Shown here one piece after another: positions 54,041 to 62,617 of a DNA stretch of 64,000 nt (positions are counted from its first letter, which is position 1; the number at the start of each line of letters is the position of its first letter). A model generated the notes under the pieces. It searched no databases. It was not told where the DNA came from and was given only the letters and a program-made list of their open reading frames with translations. The stretch covers positions 310,001 to 374,000 of the forward strand of contig NFUV01000001.1 in assembly GCA_002127295.1 (NCBI GenBank), given 5' to 3'. The DNA comes from Chitinophagaceae bacterium IBVUCB2 (lineage in GTDB: Bacteria > Bacteroidota > Bacteroidia > Chitinophagales > Chitinophagaceae). A program made the translations under genes and the position numbers.

Positions 54041-57000
54041 TTATTTATTCCTCCAATTGGGTATATACTTATCCAGCAAATCCTGGAAATCTTTAAATCC
54101 CATCAAGCCTGACAAATCAGGGTCAGTCAAAAGATTGTCTACATTTTTGTAGCCCCGTTCGTAAGCCTGTTTCAAGTAAGTAATCGCTGGTGCAGGTTTA
54201 TTATTTAGCGCATAGCTGCAAGCTAATTGGTAATAAGTTTTGCCTTTCGTCGGGTCGTTTCGAATTGCTTTTTCTAAATATTCAATTGCCAATGTATACC
54301 TGGCCATTGAATGATACACTAACCCAAGGTTAAGCGAAGTATTATGCGAACTTGGATCAAGCCTTTCCGCCTTACTTAAATAGATCAATGCGGAATCATT
54401 CATCTCTATTTTCATATAAATAGATCCGGTTTCTGTATACGCATTAGTATAGTTCGGATCAGCCTGTATAGCTCGTTTGAAATAAAATATTGCCGAATCA
54501 TATAGTTTAATATCGTCGAAGAAACTACCAATAGCAAAATAGGCTTGGGGACCCGGGTCTGTTCTTTTAAATAGTTGTTTTTTAAAATAAAAGGCAGCCG
54601 AATCATACTGCTTTTGTTGCCTGAAAACATTTGAAATATTAGACCAGATTATTGGATTCTCACTATCCAGTCGCATTGCTTTTTGCAAACTAACCTTTGC
54701 AGAGTCATACATCTTCATTCCAAGGAAAACAAGTCCCATATTACTCATGTATTGAGAATTAAATGGATCTTTTTGCACAGCTTTCCGGATATACCAACGG
54801 GCAGAATCATATCTTTTCTGTGAATAGAATGCCATTCCCATATCATTCATAAAGGATGAACTATTCACATCCAATAAGGATGAACCTTTAAGGAAATTAG
54901 TTACTGAGTCCAGCTGATTTTGCTCCCTGAATATTTTAAGAATATTATTTGATGCAGGTTTATAATCCGGCCTCACATTTAATGCTTTTCTGAAATATAA
55001 TTTAGCCGAATCATAATTCTTTTCTTGTCCATAGATTACTCCCAAATTATTCAATATAGAAGGATTGCCCGGTTCTGCCTTTATTGCCTGTTGAAAATAG
55101 TAATACGTTGAGTCCGGACGTTTAAGTTCTTTATAAACCAAACCAATATTAATTAATGCAAAGGCTGAATATGGATTAGCTTGCAAAGCCCTTTGATAAT
55201 ATAAATTGGCGGAATCGTATTGTTTTAATGCGAAACTTGCCCTGCCAAGATTATTATAGGCTTCTTCATAATTAGGATCAAGCGCCGCTGCCATGCGATA
55301 ATACACTTTGGCAGAATCAAATTCTTTCAGGTCTTTATAAAAATTGCCGATAAATACATTTACAATAGATTTATCCTGGTAATTATCAAAAGCTTTGGAA
55401 TAATAAATCCTGGCAGAATCATACTCCTTTGTTGCAAAGAATGTTTTACTTAAACCGTTATATGAATTAATAAACTTAGGGTTTGCCTGAATACTTTGTT
55501 TAAAATACGGGATCGCTTCGCCATAATTTTTTCTTCCATAATTAACCCATCCAATATTACTACTGGCATAAGGATTGGATGGGTCTAACCGTAGTGCTTT
55601 TTCATAATAGCTAATAGCAGAATCCCCTTTTGACAACGAATAATAATAGTGCCCAAGATCAACATATGCATCCGCATTGTCAGGATCAACATCTATGGAC
55701 TTGTTATAATATTTAATAGCAGAATCAGGACGATTCAATGTTTTGTATGCAAATGCTAATGTCACATATGGATACCTCCACTTAGGCGCTGCTATGATTG
55801 CTTTCTTAGCATAAAAAATTGAACTATCGATCCGGTTATTATCCAGGTGAAGGGAAGAAAGTGTGTTAAGGATATAAGCTGCATTCTTATCGGATGCATA
55901 TGCCGTATAAGCATATTGAAAAGCATTTTTAATGTCGACTAATTTCCTGCTACGACCAAAATAGCCCCGTGCTTTAAAAAAATACATTCTTCCTTCAAGT
56001 GACTTTGCAAATTCAGGATCATCAACACGAATGATTTCAATGGCTTTTTCAAGCATATTTCCTACTTCAAAAAACTCCTGTTGTGCCACTTTTTCCATTC
56101 GGTTAAAGCTGGTCACTACCTCATCAGTTATATCCTCCTCTTCTATCTGTGCCCGTAATTTTTGAATAGAAGAAGCATCCTTACAATCCAGGTAGAGATT
56201 TATTTTACTTTGTGCAAAGTTGATAAACTCAACCGCCAATGTTGACTGCGCATCAATAGTGTAAGAATTCCCCGGAAATTTTTTAGCTAACAAATCATAA
56301 TAATATTCCGCAGACGAAGTGCCAATGAGTTTGCTTTGTTTTACGGCATTATTAAATAAATTGTACGTCTCTATTAATATGGTATCGGCAGGGCCAAACT
56401 TTGCCAGGCCCCTGCTTTTGAACTTTCCACCTGAGATGGCTGAATTACCCGGCCCCTTGGACTGCAATTTTTTATTTTGTAACCATTTTCTCAAATACTC
56501 CGGGTCAACAATACTTACAACCTGGCTATTATTTTCGGTACAACAAAAAACCGGGTCTTGTTTTCTTTTAAACTGTTGCTGCGCTATTACAGGTACATTT
56601 CTATCTACATATTTTTTTATCTCTTCCACGGTAATTTTATTATCAACCGTACCCATTGAATCTGCCATGCCACTTAATCCATCAATAAGATAATAAGTGA
56701 ATAAACCGTGTCCATTACCGATAGTTGCGTCTTCCAGCGACTCTTGCCCGGCGCCGGTGGCCAGCATGATGATCTCACCTACTCTTTTTTCTGAAATCGC
56801 TGAATTTAAGAAACCTTGTCCTTCTGTTCCGCCAGGTAGTTCGCCACTTCTACAGGCATCCATGATGAAATAAACTTCAACTCCTTTTGCTGTTTCTTTA
56901 GCAATTTTTAGTTTAAGATTATACAATTGCACAGCACCTCCTACCAAATAATTGTTTTTATCTCCCGCCGGATTGCAGTCATATGTCAGGTAAAAAAACT

Positions 57001-57385
57001 GTTCCTCATCGATAGCATCGCCATGGCCAGCCAGGTAAATAAAAAGCCGATCCCCTTTTTGCAGCTTTTTTACTTTAAGCCAGTTAAACCCTTTGGTATA
57101 GAAATTTGCCAGCGTAGCCTGCTCATTGAGCAAGGTGTAAATGTTATCTTCTGAAAGTTTACCACCCCCGGGAGACTTGAGATAATCCCTAAACATTTCG
57201 GCGTCTTTATCTGCAAATGACAACGGCTTTACATATTTGTAGGAGGATATGCCCATGATCATGGCAAAAGTCTGAGGGCCTGCAATGGTAGTATCTCTTG
57301 GTTTTGGCGGGGCTTGTGCTATAATAGCATTTGCTGATGCCAGAAATAAAAGGCATACAATAAGTATGGATAAGGAAATTCGCAT
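54041..57385 (-). CDS. Secreted caspase-like peptidase with a long TPR array
   Basis: 1114 residues. Signal peptide (1-24). The caspase (peptidase C14) domain at about 36-280 has FIYLAGHGD with His121 and YFIMDACRSGELPGG with Cys178, the catalytic dyad, plus acidic residues typical of metacaspase-like folds. A linker of helices follows (about 310-510). The C-terminus holds about 17 TPR-like repeats from about residue 495, each with a YDSAxxYY signature, ending in LMGFKDFQDLLDKYIP. TPRs bind partner proteins, so the peptidase is likely controlled by or targeted to a partner. A consensus-like promoter lies upstream. It is divergent from the CHASE2 and FecR-like genes. Confidence 0.93.
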   Translation of the reverse strand: MRISLSILIVCLLFLASANAIIAQAPPKPRDTTIAGPQTFAMIMGISSYKYVKPLSFADKDAEMFRDYLKSPGGGKLSEDNIYTLLNEQATLANFYTKGFNWLKVKKLQKGDRLFIYLAGHGDAIDEEQFFYLTYDCNPAGDKNNYLVGGAVQLYNLKLKIAKETAKGVEVYFIMDACRSGELPGGTEGQGFLNSAISEKRVGEIIMLATGAGQESLEDATIGNGHGLFTYYLIDGLSGMADSMGTVDNKITVEEIKKYVDRNVPVIAQQQFKRKQDPVFCCTENNSQVVSIVDPEYLRKWLQNKKLQSKGPGNSAISGGKFKSRGLAKFGPADTILIETYNLFNNAVKQSKLIGTSSAEYYYDLLAKKFPGNSYTIDAQSTLAVEFINFAQSKINLYLDCKDASSIQKLRAQIEEEDITDEVVTSFNRMEKVAQQEFFEVGNMLEKAIEIIRVDDPEFAKSLEGRMYFFKARGYFGRSRKLVDIKNAFQYAYTAYASDKNAAYILNTLSSLHLDNNRIDSSIFYAKKAIIAAPKWRYPYVTLAFAYKTLNRPDSAIKYYNKSIDVDPDNADAYVDLGHYYYSLSKGDSAISYYEKALRLDPSNPYASSNIGWVNYGRKNYGEAIPYFKQSIQANPKFINSYNGLSKTFFATKEYDSARIYYSKAFDNYQDKSIVNVFIGNFYKDLKEFDSAKVYYRMAAALDPNYEEAYNNLGRASFALKQYDSANLYYQRALQANPYSAFALINIGLVYKELKRPDSTYYYFQQAIKAEPGNPSILNNLGVIYGQEKNYDSAKLYFRKALNVRPDYKPASNNILKIFREQNQLDSVTNFLKGSSLLDVNSSSFMNDMGMAFYSQKRYDSARWYIRKAVQKDPFNSQYMSNMGLVFLGMKMYDSAKVSLQKAMRLDSENPIIWSNISNVFRQQKQYDSAAFYFKKQLFKRTDPGPQAYFAIGSFFDDIKLYDSAIFYFKRAIQADPNYTNAYTETGSIYMKIEMNDSALIYLSKAERLDPSSHNTSLNLGLVYHSMARYTLAIEYLEKAIRNDPTKGKTYYQLACSYALNNKPAPAITYLKQAYERGYKNVDNLLTDPDLSGLMGFKDFQDLLDKYIPNWRNK

Positions 57386-57413
57386 AAATTAGACCTACTA
57401 AAATACGGATTTA

Positions 57414-57444
57414 CAAAGGAATGTCAACTTTTGCGACAAGCAAA
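57414..57444 (-). promoter_or_regulatory. Promoter of the caspase-TPR gene
   Basis: On minus: TTTG (57441-57444), 19-base spacer, TTCCTTTG (57414-57421), which is one base off TAnnTTTG. It lies 29 bases before the start codon. Confidence 0.5.
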
Positions 57445-57571
57445 ATACCTGCGGACTCAATTAATAAGGATTGCTATGTAAGAGATTGAGTTAAAATACT
57501 GTAAAGTTGCAACCAGTAGGACCATAACCAAATCATAACAATTAACCAACAACCAGCACACCACCACCTGC

Positions 57572-58819
57572 ATGAAAAAGCCATTGCATAAGCACATCGG
57601 CGGTCAAGCCAAAAAAGTAGGCAGCCATTTTACCAAATACCTGTACGAAAGGGACACTATTTTTGCGACCATTTGGGTGTTTCTGTTTATTGTAGTACTG
57701 GGTTCTATTCCACTTAACCTTGGTGTTATCAATCCTATTAAACTGAGTTTGAAAGATTTCGATTCCAATGACCTTAGCTATTCAAAACTGGGGAAAGGAT
57801 CTGATACCAAAATGGACTCCAACATCGTAATAGTCAATATAGGCTATGCAGATAGAGAAGTTCTATCCATGATGATTGATAAAGCAGCAACCATGAAGCC
57901 TAAAGTAATGGCATTAGATGCTTACTTTTCCGGGCCAAGAGAGCCACACCAGGATTCACTATTATCGGAAACGTTCCAAAAGAATAAGAACCTCATAGTC
58001 GCAACAGTATTGAATTTAAGTGGAGAAGATGGCGACACAGTCTCGCTTACAGGCAATTATATTAATACCGCTTCGAAATATGCTTTTGTAAATATTTTCA
58101 ACGACTCCCTATCTACAATTCGTTCTTACGAACCATTTTTCGACGATTATGCCAAAAAAAGGTACAAATCTTTTTCTTCCGCGGTAGTTGAAGCATATGA
58201 CCCGGCGGCTTACAAAAAATTAGAAAAAAAAGGCACCAGCAAGGTTATCATCAATTATTCCCGCAACTTAAAGAAATACCAGCTTATTGAGTATGAAGAC
58301 TTATTAGCAGACAATGTAGCAAGTTCTGCAATTGAGGGAAAAATTGTACTGTTTGGTTATATCAACGAAGATCCTAACGATATATCGGATAAGAAATTTA
58401 CTCCCATGAACAGCAGGTATTATGGGAAATCAATTCCAGACATGAATGGGATTGTAGTTCATGCCAATATTATTTCTATGGCATTGGAAGATAACTACAT
58501 AAAAAAGTTACCTTCGTGGGCAAATCTGCTTATCGCAGTGCTTGTGTGTTGGTTACACATGTCTTTTTTCGTCCGTTATTACCTTGAAAGCCATATCTGG
58601 TTCCATTTAGTAGCAAAAATCGCCCAGGTTGCCTCCGCAATATTTTTTGTATGGCTAGGCATCTATTTGTTTGATAAGTATCGTCTAAAGGTAGACCTTA
58701 AGTTAAGTTTATTGGTTATTGTGCTGGCAGTGGATGTGATATATTTTTACGAAGCATGGGCTGTATGGATGCATAAAAAATTTAATTATAAAACGGTGTT
58801 TAAACCGCACCACCATTAA
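57572..58819 (+). CDS. CHASE2-domain membrane protein without output domain
   Basis: 415 residues. One transmembrane helix near the N-terminus (about 33-52), then a large extracytoplasmic CHASE2 domain (about 60-305): IVIVNIGYADREVLSMMIDKAATMKPKVMALDAYFSGPREPHQDSLL, later SAIEGKIVLFGYINEDPN and SRYYGKSIPDMNGIVVHANIISMALED. Three helices follow (about 310-395), the standard end of CHASE2. A kinase, cyclase or other effector usually follows CHASE2; here only a short tail (HKKFNYKTVFKPHHH) is present. The sensor must signal through partners. The FecR-like gene starts 43 bases downstream. Confidence 0.9.
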   Translation: MKKPLHKHIGGQAKKVGSHFTKYLYERDTIFATIWVFLFIVVLGSIPLNLGVINPIKLSLKDFDSNDLSYSKLGKGSDTKMDSNIVIVNIGYADREVLSMMIDKAATMKPKVMALDAYFSGPREPHQDSLLSETFQKNKNLIVATVLNLSGEDGDTVSLTGNYINTASKYAFVNIFNDSLSTIRSYEPFFDDYAKKRYKSFSSAVVEAYDPAAYKKLEKKGTSKVIINYSRNLKKYQLIEYEDLLADNVASSAIEGKIVLFGYINEDPNDISDKKFTPMNSRYYGKSIPDMNGIVVHANIISMALEDNYIKKLPSWANLLIAVLVCWLHMSFFVRYYLESHIWFHLVAKIAQVASAIFFVWLGIYLFDKYRLKVDLKLSLLVIVLAVDVIYFYEAWAVWMHKKFNYKTVFKPHHH

Positions 58820-58862
58820 AATAACCATTCAAAATTCGAACACAAACCTTAAACCTCAAAAG

Positions 58863-59768
58863 ATGAAAAAGTATCTATTCCTTATCCTCCTTTTCTGTAG
58901 CGCCGTCGCAGTTTCCGGGCAGGGCAACAGTTTTTTGTTGTACAGCTTTAAAGGAAATGTTTCTGTGGTAGAAAACAAAGTAGAAAGCAAGGCAAAAGTT
59001 GGCAAAACACTTACAAGCACCGCCACTATTAAAGTTCCCGCTGGTTCTGCAGTTACGTTAATTTGTAATGAAGCAGCTATGTTTACTATTGGTAAACCCG
59101 GCACTTATGCATTAACTATGTTTGGCGATTCTTGCCGTGTAAGCAGCAATTCTGTAAGTGCCAATTATGTAAAATATGTGTGGGCGCAAATGACAAAACC
59201 AAGTGGTTCTGCAGGCAGTAATCGCAAAGCTTATATGAATACTGTTGGTGCTGTAAGCCGTAATATCAATAACGTTTGGATTGATACCCGCCTTGATACC
59301 GTTAACTACTCCGGATTGGTAAATGATTTCCCGTTATCATGGAAATCTTACGCAGATGCTAAAGAGTTTGAATTTTTGCTATATAATACTGACAATATAA
59401 GTGCTCCTTTCTTTACAACTTATGTTTCAAAATTAAAAATCCCGGTTAAGGATTTTTCAAAAAAGATTAAGCCTGGAACCAGTTATTTCTGGACAGCTGC
59501 CATCAAAGGTGAAGTAAATGAAGAGCTGAAAATATTTAATTATGTTTCCAAAGAAACATTTGCCGTAATTCTTGATAACATTAAAAAGCAAGGTGCTGCA
59601 TTTGAAGCGCCGGCTGAACAGGCATACCGTATTGGTTTTATGCTGGAAGATGCACACTACCTGGCAGAAGCACTGGAATACTACAACAAAGCCGCTGCAC
59701 TTGATACAGCTAATGCTTTGTACAGAACTACATTAATGTCTTTCAAAAAAGATTACGAAATAAAATAA
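58863..59768 (+). CDS. Exported FecR-like protein with C-terminal TPR motif
   Basis: 301 residues with a signal peptide (1-20). Residues about 25-85 read LYSFKGNVSVVENKVESKAKVGKTLTSTATIKVPAGSAVTLICNEA, which resembles the FecR beta domain (value, charge, scale and polymer-forming turns). The middle is unassigned. The end (LEDAHYLAEALEYYNKAAALDTANALYRTTLM) is a TPR-like helix pair. It may be a periplasmic adapter for the CHASE2 protein or the caspase-TPR protein (inference). It is followed by its own terminator. Confidence 0.7.
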   Translation: MKKYLFLILLFCSAVAVSGQGNSFLLYSFKGNVSVVENKVESKAKVGKTLTSTATIKVPAGSAVTLICNEAAMFTIGKPGTYALTMFGDSCRVSSNSVSANYVKYVWAQMTKPSGSAGSNRKAYMNTVGAVSRNINNVWIDTRLDTVNYSGLVNDFPLSWKSYADAKEFEFLLYNTDNISAPFFTTYVSKLKIPVKDFSKKIKPGTSYFWTAAIKGEVNEELKIFNYVSKETFAVILDNIKKQGAAFEAPAEQAYRIGFMLEDAHYLAEALEYYNKAAALDTANALYRTTLMSFKKDYEIK

Positions 59769-59886: not shown

Positions 59887-61200
59887 ATGAAGAAAATTAT
59901 TGTAAATGCTTTTTTATTGCTTGCTGTTACAACACAGGCGCAGATGAAAGCAGGTGATGTAAAATCATTCACCCTGAAAAACGGGATGAAATTTTTAGTA
60001 GTGGAAGACAATTCCATTCCCAATGCCAACATGTATCTTTTTTATAAAGTAGGCAGCCGGAACGAATACCAGGGTATTACTGGCCTATCACATTTTTTTG
60101 AACACATGATGTTCAATGGTGCAAAAAAATATGGCCCTAAAATGTTTGACCAAACAATGGAGTTTAATGGTGGCGCCAACAATGCTTACACCAGGGAAGA
60201 TGTAACCGTTTATACCAATTGGTTCCCTTCTTCCGCTACGGAAGTAATTTTTGACCTGGAAGGTGACCGTATTTCCAGCTTAAGCATTGATCCTAAAATC
60301 GTAGAAAGTGAAAGAGGAGTTGTATTAAGCGAAAGAAGTACAGGCTTGGAAAATTCTCCGTGGCAATTACTATTTCAAACCGCACAGGGAGTTGCTTTTT
60401 TAGAGCATCCTTACCATTGGCCCGTTATAGGTTATGAGGATGATATGAAAAACTGGAAGCAGGAAGACCTGGAGAGATATTTTAAAATGTACTATGCCCC
60501 GAATAATTGTGTAACAGTTATTTCCGGCAACGTAAAATTTGATGAAATTAAAAAGTTAGCCGAAAAATATATTGAGCCGATCCCGGCACAACCAGAACCA
60601 CCAAAAATCAATATAGTAGAACCACCTCAAACCGGCGAAAGAAGAGTGATGATGCAAAAAGATGTTGCTACTCCTTACCTCGGTATTGCCTGGCATGTAC
60701 CTAACGCAAAGCATGAGGACTATTATGCTTTGACTATCCTTAGTGATATTCTTGCCAGCGGACGTTCATCAAGATTATACAGCTCATTGGTTGATAAACA
60801 ACAATTAGCCACACAAATATTTACAAACTTTGGAGAGAGCTTCGATCCTACCCTCTTTATTATTGCAGCTGTAGCAGCTAAAAACGTAAATGAAGCTGAC
60901 CTGGAAAAAGCTATTTATGAAGAAGTGGAAAAAATAAAAAAAGATGGTATTACCGAAACAGAGTTACAAAAAATAAAAAATCAGAAGCTGATGGAGTTTT
61001 ATGGCCAGGTAGAAACCATCAATGGCAAATCCAACAATATTGGTACCTATGAAGTATTCTTCGGTGATTATAAGAAAATGTTTGATGCCCCTGCTGCCTT
61101 TAATAAGGTAACGGCCGATGATATAAAAAGAGTTGCAGCTAAATATTTTACCAAAATCAACCGGACAGTAGGCATACTAAAATCAAATACTGCGGAATAA
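59887..61200 (+). CDS. M16-family zinc peptidase, active subunit
   Basis: 437 residues with a signal peptide (1-19). The inverted zinc motif HFFEH lies at 69-73 in GLSHFFEHMMFNG, and the third ligand Glu is in ESERGVVLSER. The second half carries the non-catalytic M16 domain. These peptidases degrade peptides in the periplasm. The next gene, 19 bases downstream, encodes a partner without the motif, as expected of a two-chain M16 complex. Confidence 0.93.
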   Translation: MKKIIVNAFLLLAVTTQAQMKAGDVKSFTLKNGMKFLVVEDNSIPNANMYLFYKVGSRNEYQGITGLSHFFEHMMFNGAKKYGPKMFDQTMEFNGGANNAYTREDVTVYTNWFPSSATEVIFDLEGDRISSLSIDPKIVESERGVVLSERSTGLENSPWQLLFQTAQGVAFLEHPYHWPVIGYEDDMKNWKQEDLERYFKMYYAPNNCVTVISGNVKFDEIKKLAEKYIEPIPAQPEPPKINIVEPPQTGERRVMMQKDVATPYLGIAWHVPNAKHEDYYALTILSDILASGRSSRLYSSLVDKQQLATQIFTNFGESFDPTLFIIAAVAAKNVNEADLEKAIYEEVEKIKKDGITETELQKIKNQKLMEFYGQVETINGKSNNIGTYEVFFGDYKKMFDAPAAFNKVTADDIKRVAAKYFTKINRTVGILKSNTAE

Positions 61201-61219
61201 ACTACTAAAAGAAATTTTT

Positions 61220-62617
61220 ATGCGATTAATAAATAAACTATTCCTAATAGCTATTACAGTTTGTATGACGGGCCAACTGAATGCACAATCATACAAGTTG
61301 CCACCGTACGAAAAATTTAAATTGAAAAATGGCCTGACTGTTTACCTGATGGAGCAGCATGAAGTGCCTGTTATCAATGTTTCAGTTATTCTTCCGGCAG
61401 GTGCTATTTATGATGGGGAAAAGGCTGGCCTTGCATCATTAACTGCAACGGCTTTAAAACATGGCACAAAAAATTACGATAAAATAAAACTAGACGAAGA
61501 ATTAGATTTTCATGGCGCCTATATCAGCACCTCCGCTTCAAAGGAATCAACAAGTCTTTCTGCAAAAATGGCAGCAAAGGACAAAATTAAAATACTAACT
61601 CTTTTAAAGGAAGTACTGTTAGAGCCATCATTTGATGCAGCAGAGTTTGATAAAGAAAAGAAAAGAACCTTACTGGGCCTGGAGCAACAAAAAGAAAGTC
61701 CCCGTTCGGTAATTGGTTCTTACTTCGACAAGTTCTTATACGGCAACCATGTTTATGGAAATGAAGTACAAGGAAAAATCTCCACCGTTACTCCCTTAAC
61801 TACTGACGATTTAAAAAAATTCTATTCTGAGAATTATCTGCCAGAAGGTTCTGCTATTTCCATTGCCGGAGATTTTAACAAAGCAGAAATGAAAACATTA
61901 ATTACCAATTTATTTTCATCCTGGAAAAAAGGGACAAAACCTCAGGTAAATCTTGCCTCACAGCCGATAGCAAAACCGGCTAAACAACAAGTGTTGCTGG
62001 TTAATAAAGATGATGCTAAAGAAACTACTTTCTATATAGGTGCACCGGGTATTGCCCGCAATAATCCAGATTATGTTTCTATTGATGTGGTTAATACGTT
62101 GTTTGGCGGTCGCTTTACTTCTATGCTTAATGATGAACTTCGGGTAAATACTGGCTTAACATATGGTGCCCGCAGCAGTTTCAATGCCTTGAAAAACGGG
62201 GGATCTTTTGCTATTTCTACTTTTACCGCTGGTAAAACTTCAGAGCAGGCAATCGATAAAGCGTTGGAAGTATTGAATAAATTACATTCAAACGGCATAG
62301 ACGAACAATCACTAACATCAGCAAAGAACTATGTAAAAGGACAATTTCCTCCCCGCTTTGAAACGGCTGGTCAGTTAGCCGGCCTAATGACACAGATGTT
62401 CTGGTATAATTTTGACGAGTCGTTCATTAATAATTTTGAGAAAAACGTAAATGATCTGACGTTAGATAAAGCAAAAACAATCATTGCAAAATATTTCCCT
62501 AAGGACAAATTGCAATTTATATTGGTGGGTAAAGCTGCTGATATAAGAAAGATTGCCGAAAAATATGGCCCTGTTAAAGAAGTTGAAATAAAAGAAGAAG
62601 TGAAAAAAGGATTTTAA
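61220..62617 (+). CDS. M16-family peptidase-like protein, inactive partner
   Basis: 465 residues with a signal peptide (1-22). The fold is that of M16, but the place of HxxEH reads GLASLTATALKHG and lacks the His and Glu ligands. The C-terminal half has TGLTYGARSSFNALKNGGSFAIST with the conserved R/Y region that shapes the active-site pocket. It should pair with the active chain encoded upstream, in the manner of mitochondrial processing peptidase. It is followed by a terminator. Confidence 0.9.
   Translation: MRLINKLFLIAITVCMTGQLNAQSYKLPPYEKFKLKNGLTVYLMEQHEVPVINVSVILPAGAIYDGEKAGLASLTATALKHGTKNYDKIKLDEELDFHGAYISTSASKESTSLSAKMAAKDKIKILTLLKEVLLEPSFDAAEFDKEKKRTLLGLEQQKESPRSVIGSYFDKFLYGNHVYGNEVQGKISTVTPLTTDDLKKFYSENYLPEGSAISIAGDFNKAEMKTLITNLFSSWKKGTKPQVNLASQPIAKPAKQQVLLVNKDDAKETTFYIGAPGIARNNPDYVSIDVVNTLFGGRFTSMLNDELRVNTGLTYGARSSFNALKNGGSFAISTFTAGKTSEQAIDKALEVLNKLHSNGIDEQSLTSAKNYVKGQFPPRFETAGQLAGLMTQMFWYNFDESFINNFEKNVNDLTLDKAKTIIAKYFPKDKLQFILVGKAADIRKIAEKYGPVKEVEIKEEVKKGF

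Follow-up and report, generated by a model that had tools for sequence, protein, structure and literature searches.

Within a 64,000-nucleotide stretch of the genome of Chitinophagaceae bacterium IBVUCB2 (contig NFUV01000001.1, positions 310,001 to 374,000 of the forward strand; the whole stretch is called the window here), three neighboring genes encode a caspase-like protein with tetratricopeptide repeats (TPRs), a CHASE2 receptor that ends after its membrane helices, and a FecR-like protein. The linkage of these three genes is well supported. Its constant core is the CHASE2 gene together with the FecR-like gene; the caspase recurs beside them as a partner that can be exchanged. One genome of the same genus (G020) keeps the pair with no caspase close by, caspases are missing from the stretches read at 18 of 24 output-less CHASE2 loci outside the order, and cyclases sit on all the long CHASE2 proteins tested, so the steady unit is the CHASE2–FecR-like pair. 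A sequence-only reading of the window had proposed a signaling module in which the peptidase or the FecR-like protein serves as effector of the sensor. That proposal gains from conservation beyond close relatives and from parts fused in pairs, and it loses in that the caspase is not a fixed partner. We give even chances to the reading that CHASE2 and the FecR-like protein form a receptor–adaptor pair at the inner membrane that controls an exported caspase.

The open reading frames (ORFs) of the three genes lie at 54041–57385 (minus strand), 57572–58819 and 58863–59768 (both plus strand), in agreement with the positions and the 186-base divergent gap (57386–57571, between the caspase and CHASE2 genes) reported from the sequence-only reading. 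No TAnnTTTG-type promoter motif was found by script on either strand of this gap. The minus-strand ORF encodes a putatively exported protein of 1114 residues, which matches TPR families in Pfam as well as Peptidase_C14, the latter with 46.7 bits (cut-off 21.4; E 4.2e-12) over residues 40–285 (56531–57268). The proposed dyad, His121 (codon 57023–57025) and Cys178 (codon 56852–56854), is present and invariant in 13/13 rows of an alignment of the window protein with 12 relatives. The estimate of about 17 TPRs also stands, with 14 DSx motifs at mostly 34-residue spacing and regular helix pairs in the structure model at approximately residues 503–1076 (54158–55879). Sequence and hydropathy, rather than a dedicated predictor, point to a signal peptide at about residues 1–24 (57314–57385), and hydrophobic N-termini occur in the caspases of other CHASE2 loci.

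The CHASE2 protein has 415 residues and PF05226 as its only Pfam family (E 7.3e-24, 85.1 bits against a cut-off of 26.3; residues 94–328, 57851–58555); Pfam gave neither a kinase domain nor a part binding cyclic diguanosine monophosphate (c-di-GMP). Hydropathy shows four peaks, one before the loop and three after it (approximately residues 314–398, 58511–58765), which would fit the usual receptor topology. CHASE2 receptors usually, though not universally, carry a fused cytoplasmic output domain behind these helices. In the window protein such a domain is absent and the chain stops just after its last helices, as had been noticed, with 22 residues following Tyr393 (16–65 in 25 rows of an alignment, A5). 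A search of solved structures by sequence gave no match to the CHASE2 profile at E 0.1. The same genome holds a second, short CHASE2 ORF of 176 residues that ends before the helices (G000:C1:866034-866552; L003:8029-8559), and a BLAST search of the surrounding 17 kb with the window proteins as queries turned up neither a caspase nor a FecR-like gene. The FecR-like gene starts 43 bases after the CHASE2 ORF and so, like a gene for an MtxA-like protein, lies beside a CHASE2 gene.

Conservation was examined at the level of genus, order, and phylum. A protein search found CHASE2 in 18 of 58 genomes, all of the same genus, while 17 of 35 genus genomes lacked it. Those without it were mostly small (1.5–2.6 Mb), with G015 (4.4 Mb) and G019 (3.4 Mb) as exceptions. 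The FecR-like profile matched 18/39 genus genomes, and among the genus genomes searched for both, the two genes co-occurred genome for genome. As to how these sets were composed, G005, whose contig ends inside CHASE2, belongs to the CHASE2 set and not to the FecR-like set; G331 was added to the FecR-like set and has CHASE2 too; and G330, G332, and G333, where the FecR-like gene was not found, lay outside the CHASE2 search. Of the testable genus genomes, 15/16 have a divergent caspase gene beside CHASE2, a count that leaves out G012 and G025 for their short contigs, and 17/17 have the FecR-like gene beside CHASE2. The exception, G020, has a Bax-inhibitor gene at the caspase position, and its genome contains no caspase match better than 142 bits. 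A set of twenty loci taken from named records, whose genomes partly overlap with these, gave the caspase in 18/18 testable cases and the FecR-like gene in 19/19. Genus adjacency alone proves little, because housekeeping neighbors, including rlmH and a rhomboid gene, are conserved there as well.

Across the order, the CHASE2 profile matched 29 of 298 genomes, the window's own among them, in 15 of 140 genera, and all 32 further CHASE2 places in the other 28 genomes were taken as order loci. The short CHASE2 relatives in L102 and L105, and L097 on its 4.5-kb contig, were kept in these counts. A FecR-like gene lies no more than two genes downstream of CHASE2 in 29/32 loci (absent in L102, L103, and L105; the match in L104 is weak, at 18.6 bits), and a caspase is present in 27/32 (absent in L080, L083, L097, L102, and L105). 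The rlmH and rhomboid genes were found in L074–L078 and in no other locus searched; these neighbors are lost while the module stays, which therefore is not plain synteny. The co-occurrence search that had been proposed for Bacteroidota thus finds the neighborhood conserved outside close relatives. Other peptidases occur in CHASE2 loci too. TPR proteins with an HExxH motif are encoded in 19/32 of the order loci (motif intact in 25 of 26 such proteins; the one scanned with Pfam gave a sub-threshold M48 match), and L112 has a papain-like, putatively exported peptidase between the FecR-like gene and the caspase (L112:10682-12049; PF00112 at E 3.2e-12, DUF4384 matched below its threshold). In L010, a tandem second FecR-like copy is 46% identical to the window protein (L010:10224-11126).

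In the phylum, a wide CHASE2 profile matched 127/395 genomes and separated two kinds of ORF, one of about 390–460 residues ending after the helices and one of about 710–920 residues; a cyclase domain was found in all 21 long proteins tested. The set outside the order consisted of 25 places with E <1e-50 plus one from a plasmid record. CHASE2 was called in 24 of these 26 places, and the two others (L121 and L125) do have a FecR-like gene. In 19 of the 24 output-less CHASE2 loci the FecR-like gene is downstream or fused. L124 and L130 have two tandem CHASE2 genes ahead of one FecR-like gene. The CHASE2-cyclase loci served as a control (n = 21, hand-picked from a longer list). None of the 21 has a FecR-like gene just downstream, while a FecR-type match lies elsewhere in 13/21; most of these matches are one or two genes upstream, and many of them are weak. 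The one such match tested (L146) is a true PF04773 protein, and it is also reached by the profile built from FecR-like relatives. By these counts, FecR-type partners go with both kinds of CHASE2 and caspases mainly with the output-less kind.

Two kinds of natural fusion join the products of these genes. In G602, a 648-residue FecR-like–caspase fusion with a signal-like start is encoded directly behind CHASE2; its FecR-like part spans residues 1–161, its caspase part residues 162–390 with GHG and DACFSG motifs, and an outer-membrane barrel is matched as well. G713 encodes a protein 72% identical to it, again behind CHASE2, and G714 a fusion truncated by the contig start. These three genomes, out of 10 searched in their family, belong to one genus. 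The second kind is a CHASE2–FecR-like single chain of 741–755 residues in G533, G717, and G719, each from a different genus, out of 8 genomes of their family that were searched. Fused protein pairs usually act together, and we regard the FecR-like–caspase fusion as the best single hint of contact between adaptor and protease.

The caspases found around CHASE2 are diverse. Across CHASE2 loci, 50 of 51 carry the His/Cys dyad, and the remaining one is truncated at the locus end; 42 of the 51 come from the order, spread over 27 loci. Bacterial caspases of family C14 are described as cutting after basic residues (abstract of PMC6426788). Most of the 37 caspases checked (2 of them from the genus) start with a hydrophobic, signal-like stretch, as judged by hydropathy from mechanically assigned starts. 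A tree of 52 caspase domains placed several well supported clades around CHASE2, while its deep forks were weak and some branches long. These include a TPR-type clade of the window's family (seven rows, one of them a paralogue from elsewhere in the window's genome), an eight-row clade from two families in which DUF4384 was near its cut-off in two of three members tested, a four-row clade from four families (L082, L112, L113, and L114), and a nine-row clade in family f18. The arrangement has therefore been kept, or reached, with different caspases. The closest caspase paralogue in the window's genome (G000:C1:464788-465693; L137:8720-10921) has 733 residues and 74% identity over 238 columns, and it has an outer-membrane barrel match in place of the TPR array. 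It sits behind a run of co-directional genes, and similar genes occur in many genus genomes. Elsewhere in this genome, six caspase-domain matches fall inside 20 kb (G000:C1:1074536-1094376). The caspase profile found no solved structure by sequence at E 0.01.

The putatively exported FecR-like protein has 301 residues and was aligned in 36 rows. Neither Pfam (at E 0.01) nor NCBIfam gives a family for it, and PF04773 was not matched at E 0.05 by it or by any of the 32 rows of a second alignment (A6). The label FecR-like thus draws on remote profile links and on a structure model (mean predicted local distance difference test score, pLDDT, 89.1; predicted template modeling score 0.56). FecR family proteins typically have a FecI-type sigma-factor partner. 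The model consists of a beta domain (residues 20–95, 58920–59147), an immunoglobulin-like (Ig-like) domain and C-terminal helices (the latter two at residues 138–301, 59274–59768). In a fold search with the model, the C-terminal half matched the MtxA structure 4z29; no FecR structure was among the matches listed, which excludes nothing. By sequence, the profile matched mainly TPR proteins among solved structures. The TPR part is small, with four helices in the model and one weak TPR match (residues 252–282, E 0.036). The earlier description as FecR-like/TPR is therefore apt in spirit, through the remote links and the model, and less so in the letter. After this gene, the window contains two M16 peptidase genes (59887–62617), and an M16 gene also adjoins CHASE2 in L120–L123 and L126, in another family. 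The M16 pair was considered as a fourth module part and rejected, as it was not found between the FecR-like gene and rlmH in L007, L008, L010, L011, and L013.

The simplest reading is that control takes place at the inner membrane's outer face, because CHASE2 lacks an output domain and both of its partners are putatively exported. The loop of CHASE2 would lie in the periplasm together with the mature FecR-like protein and the caspase, leaving only short CHASE2 tails in the cytoplasm. The FecR-like protein would dock on the CHASE2 loop and bind the caspase directly, and a change in the CHASE2/FecR-like complex, on whatever signal, would release or activate the putative protease, whose TPR array may select substrates. 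Association with the caspase exceeds its density in the genomes: 27 of 31 loci contain one against 1.06 expected (maximum 7 in 100,000 simulations), the expectation being the Pfam caspase count per genome plus two added by hand, and L097 being left out since its genome lay outside that count. Several points weigh against the proposal. The 27/31 loci come from related genomes, several per genus, and are not independent, and the Pfam count behind the expectation is less sensitive than the caspase profile used on the loci, which was built partly from them. Outside the order only 6/24 loci have a caspase, within stretches read on contigs that are in several cases short. The cyclase control, in which 2/21 loci have one about 4.6 kb away, speaks for the proposal by contrast, but it comes from other families and is not scaled to their caspase density. 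Given G020 and these caspase-less loci, the CHASE2–FecR-like pair must also work otherwise, and the HExxH TPR proteins suggest that the caspase may not be its sole partner. Finally, the caspase model is good in the repeats and largely below pLDDT 50 in the catalytic domain, for which it was set aside. A broader version of the same proposal, which we consider possible and somewhat less probable than its opposite, is that CHASE2 with a FecR/MtxA-like adaptor is a Bacteroidota-wide system of outer-face signaling that gates interchangeable exported peptidases, caspases foremost, so that the signal need not enter the cytoplasm.

The strongest competing explanation, unlikely in our estimate though to be taken seriously, is that the CHASE2–FecR-like pair is an all-purpose envelope sensor with its output elsewhere, for example in a partner touching the conserved helices or tails, and that the caspase merely settled in the same island. 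The caspase-less loci outside the order and G020 agree with it, as do the various other peptidases (HExxH TPR, papain-like, and M16) and the conservation of the CHASE2 helices and C-terminal tail, which in the genus alignment is higher (0.77–0.87) than that of the loop (0.63). The sequence-only reading had named linkage of CHASE2 to an unrelated effector as evidence against its own proposal, and this was borne out in part, by the 18/24 loci with no caspase in the stretch read, by G020, and by the cyclases on 21/21 long CHASE2 proteins tested. Against a mere co-settler, FecR-like–caspase fusions adjoining CHASE2 and the enrichment over caspase density favor a direct link. A less probable arrangement would reverse the direction of control, with the caspase acting upstream and setting the sensor by cleaving the loop of CHASE2 or its FecR-like partner, as in anti-sigma proteolysis. 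A stretch at approximately residues 110–140 of the FecR-like protein is poorly ordered in the model and contains basic residues invariant in 16 aligned rows. The linker motif M-x(2-4)-[GA][AS]V-x-R is nevertheless as frequent outside the order in FecR-like proteins with no caspase nearby (10/18) as in those with one (3/6), and it occurs in 5/33 order-level proteins with a caspase nearby. A caspase cut site in the linker was accordingly dropped as evidence, the motif being no more tied to loci with a caspase than to those lacking one.

It is very improbable that the caspase serves in self-killing or against competitors, with the pair as its guard. Bacterial caspases are discussed in connection with programmed cell death (excerpts of PMC3501461 and PMC7475262), while no toxin or defense family came up for the three window proteins in Pfam or NCBIfam, the padloc library being outside that search. 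Plain shared synteny of related genomes, which the conserved housekeeping neighbors of the genus might suggest, is close to refuted and the least credible of all, as neighbors go while the module stays, fusions exist, and 27/31 loci far exceed expectation.

Receptor–adaptor pairing and the coupling of caspases to CHASE2 in single chains are already known, as are the parts themselves; the comparisons here rest on excerpts of the papers cited. In magnetotactic bacteria, the MtxA gene precedes a CHASE2-adenylate cyclase gene (PMC4439547). The window resembles this in a putatively exported Ig-like/TPR protein encoded beside CHASE2, with a C-terminal half like 4z29, and differs in that the MtxA-associated CHASE2 carries a cyclase and the gene order is reversed. 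The BiofilmReg operon of Burkholderia encodes a response regulator, a LysM-FecR protein, and a CHASE2 histidine kinase (PMC5192318). Here too an exported FecR-domain protein shares an operon with a CHASE2 receptor; its output is a fused histidine kinase, whereas the window CHASE2 has no kinase domain, and the word caspase has a count of 0 in the text consulted. In Sinorhizobium, the CHASE2 cyclases CyaD1, CyaD2, and CyaK act with outer-membrane NsrA (PMC13001267), again a receptor driven through an envelope protein, though with cyclic adenosine monophosphate as output and with FecR absent from the text seen. Single chains are represented by a Trichodesmium caspase-CHASE2 fusion (PMC3501461), whose caspase is predicted to be cytoplasmic, and by EACC2-caspase-CHASE2 proteins (PMC8195603). 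They likewise couple a caspase domain to a CHASE2 receptor, whereas the window caspase is separate, putatively exported, and accompanied by a FecR-like partner; section 13 of PMC3501461 names neither CHASE2 nor FecR. In the Lap system, the membrane receptor LapD holds the periplasmic cysteine protease LapG, and the retention domain of a substrate can contact the protease (PMC13090378). This is a precedent for control of the proposed kind, and the outline suggested for the window would be analogous, with a receptor in the inner membrane that gates a cysteine protease in the periplasm. The components differ, as LapG-type proteases adopt the transglutaminase-like fold and c-di-GMP is bound by LapD, neither domain being found by Pfam in the window proteins, and the window peptidase is of family C14. 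Among the literature matches listed, which covered open main texts in part, no description was found of a module of exported caspase, output-less CHASE2, and FecR-like protein.

To our knowledge, neither the signal sensed by CHASE2 nor the task of exported bacterial caspases has been settled. The three-part module points to a largely undescribed form of protease control outside the inner membrane, and a recurrent pair with natural fusions tells which proteins should be tested against which. If the gating is real, a caspase-type protease and its receptor would both be periplasmic, in contrast to the predicted cytoplasmic caspase of Trichodesmium (per the same excerpts of PMC3501461). If outer-face signaling holds more widely, the system would be a convergent counterpart of LapD–LapG with an animal-type protease domain, and exported bacterial caspases would acquire a regulator as well as a function other than cell death.

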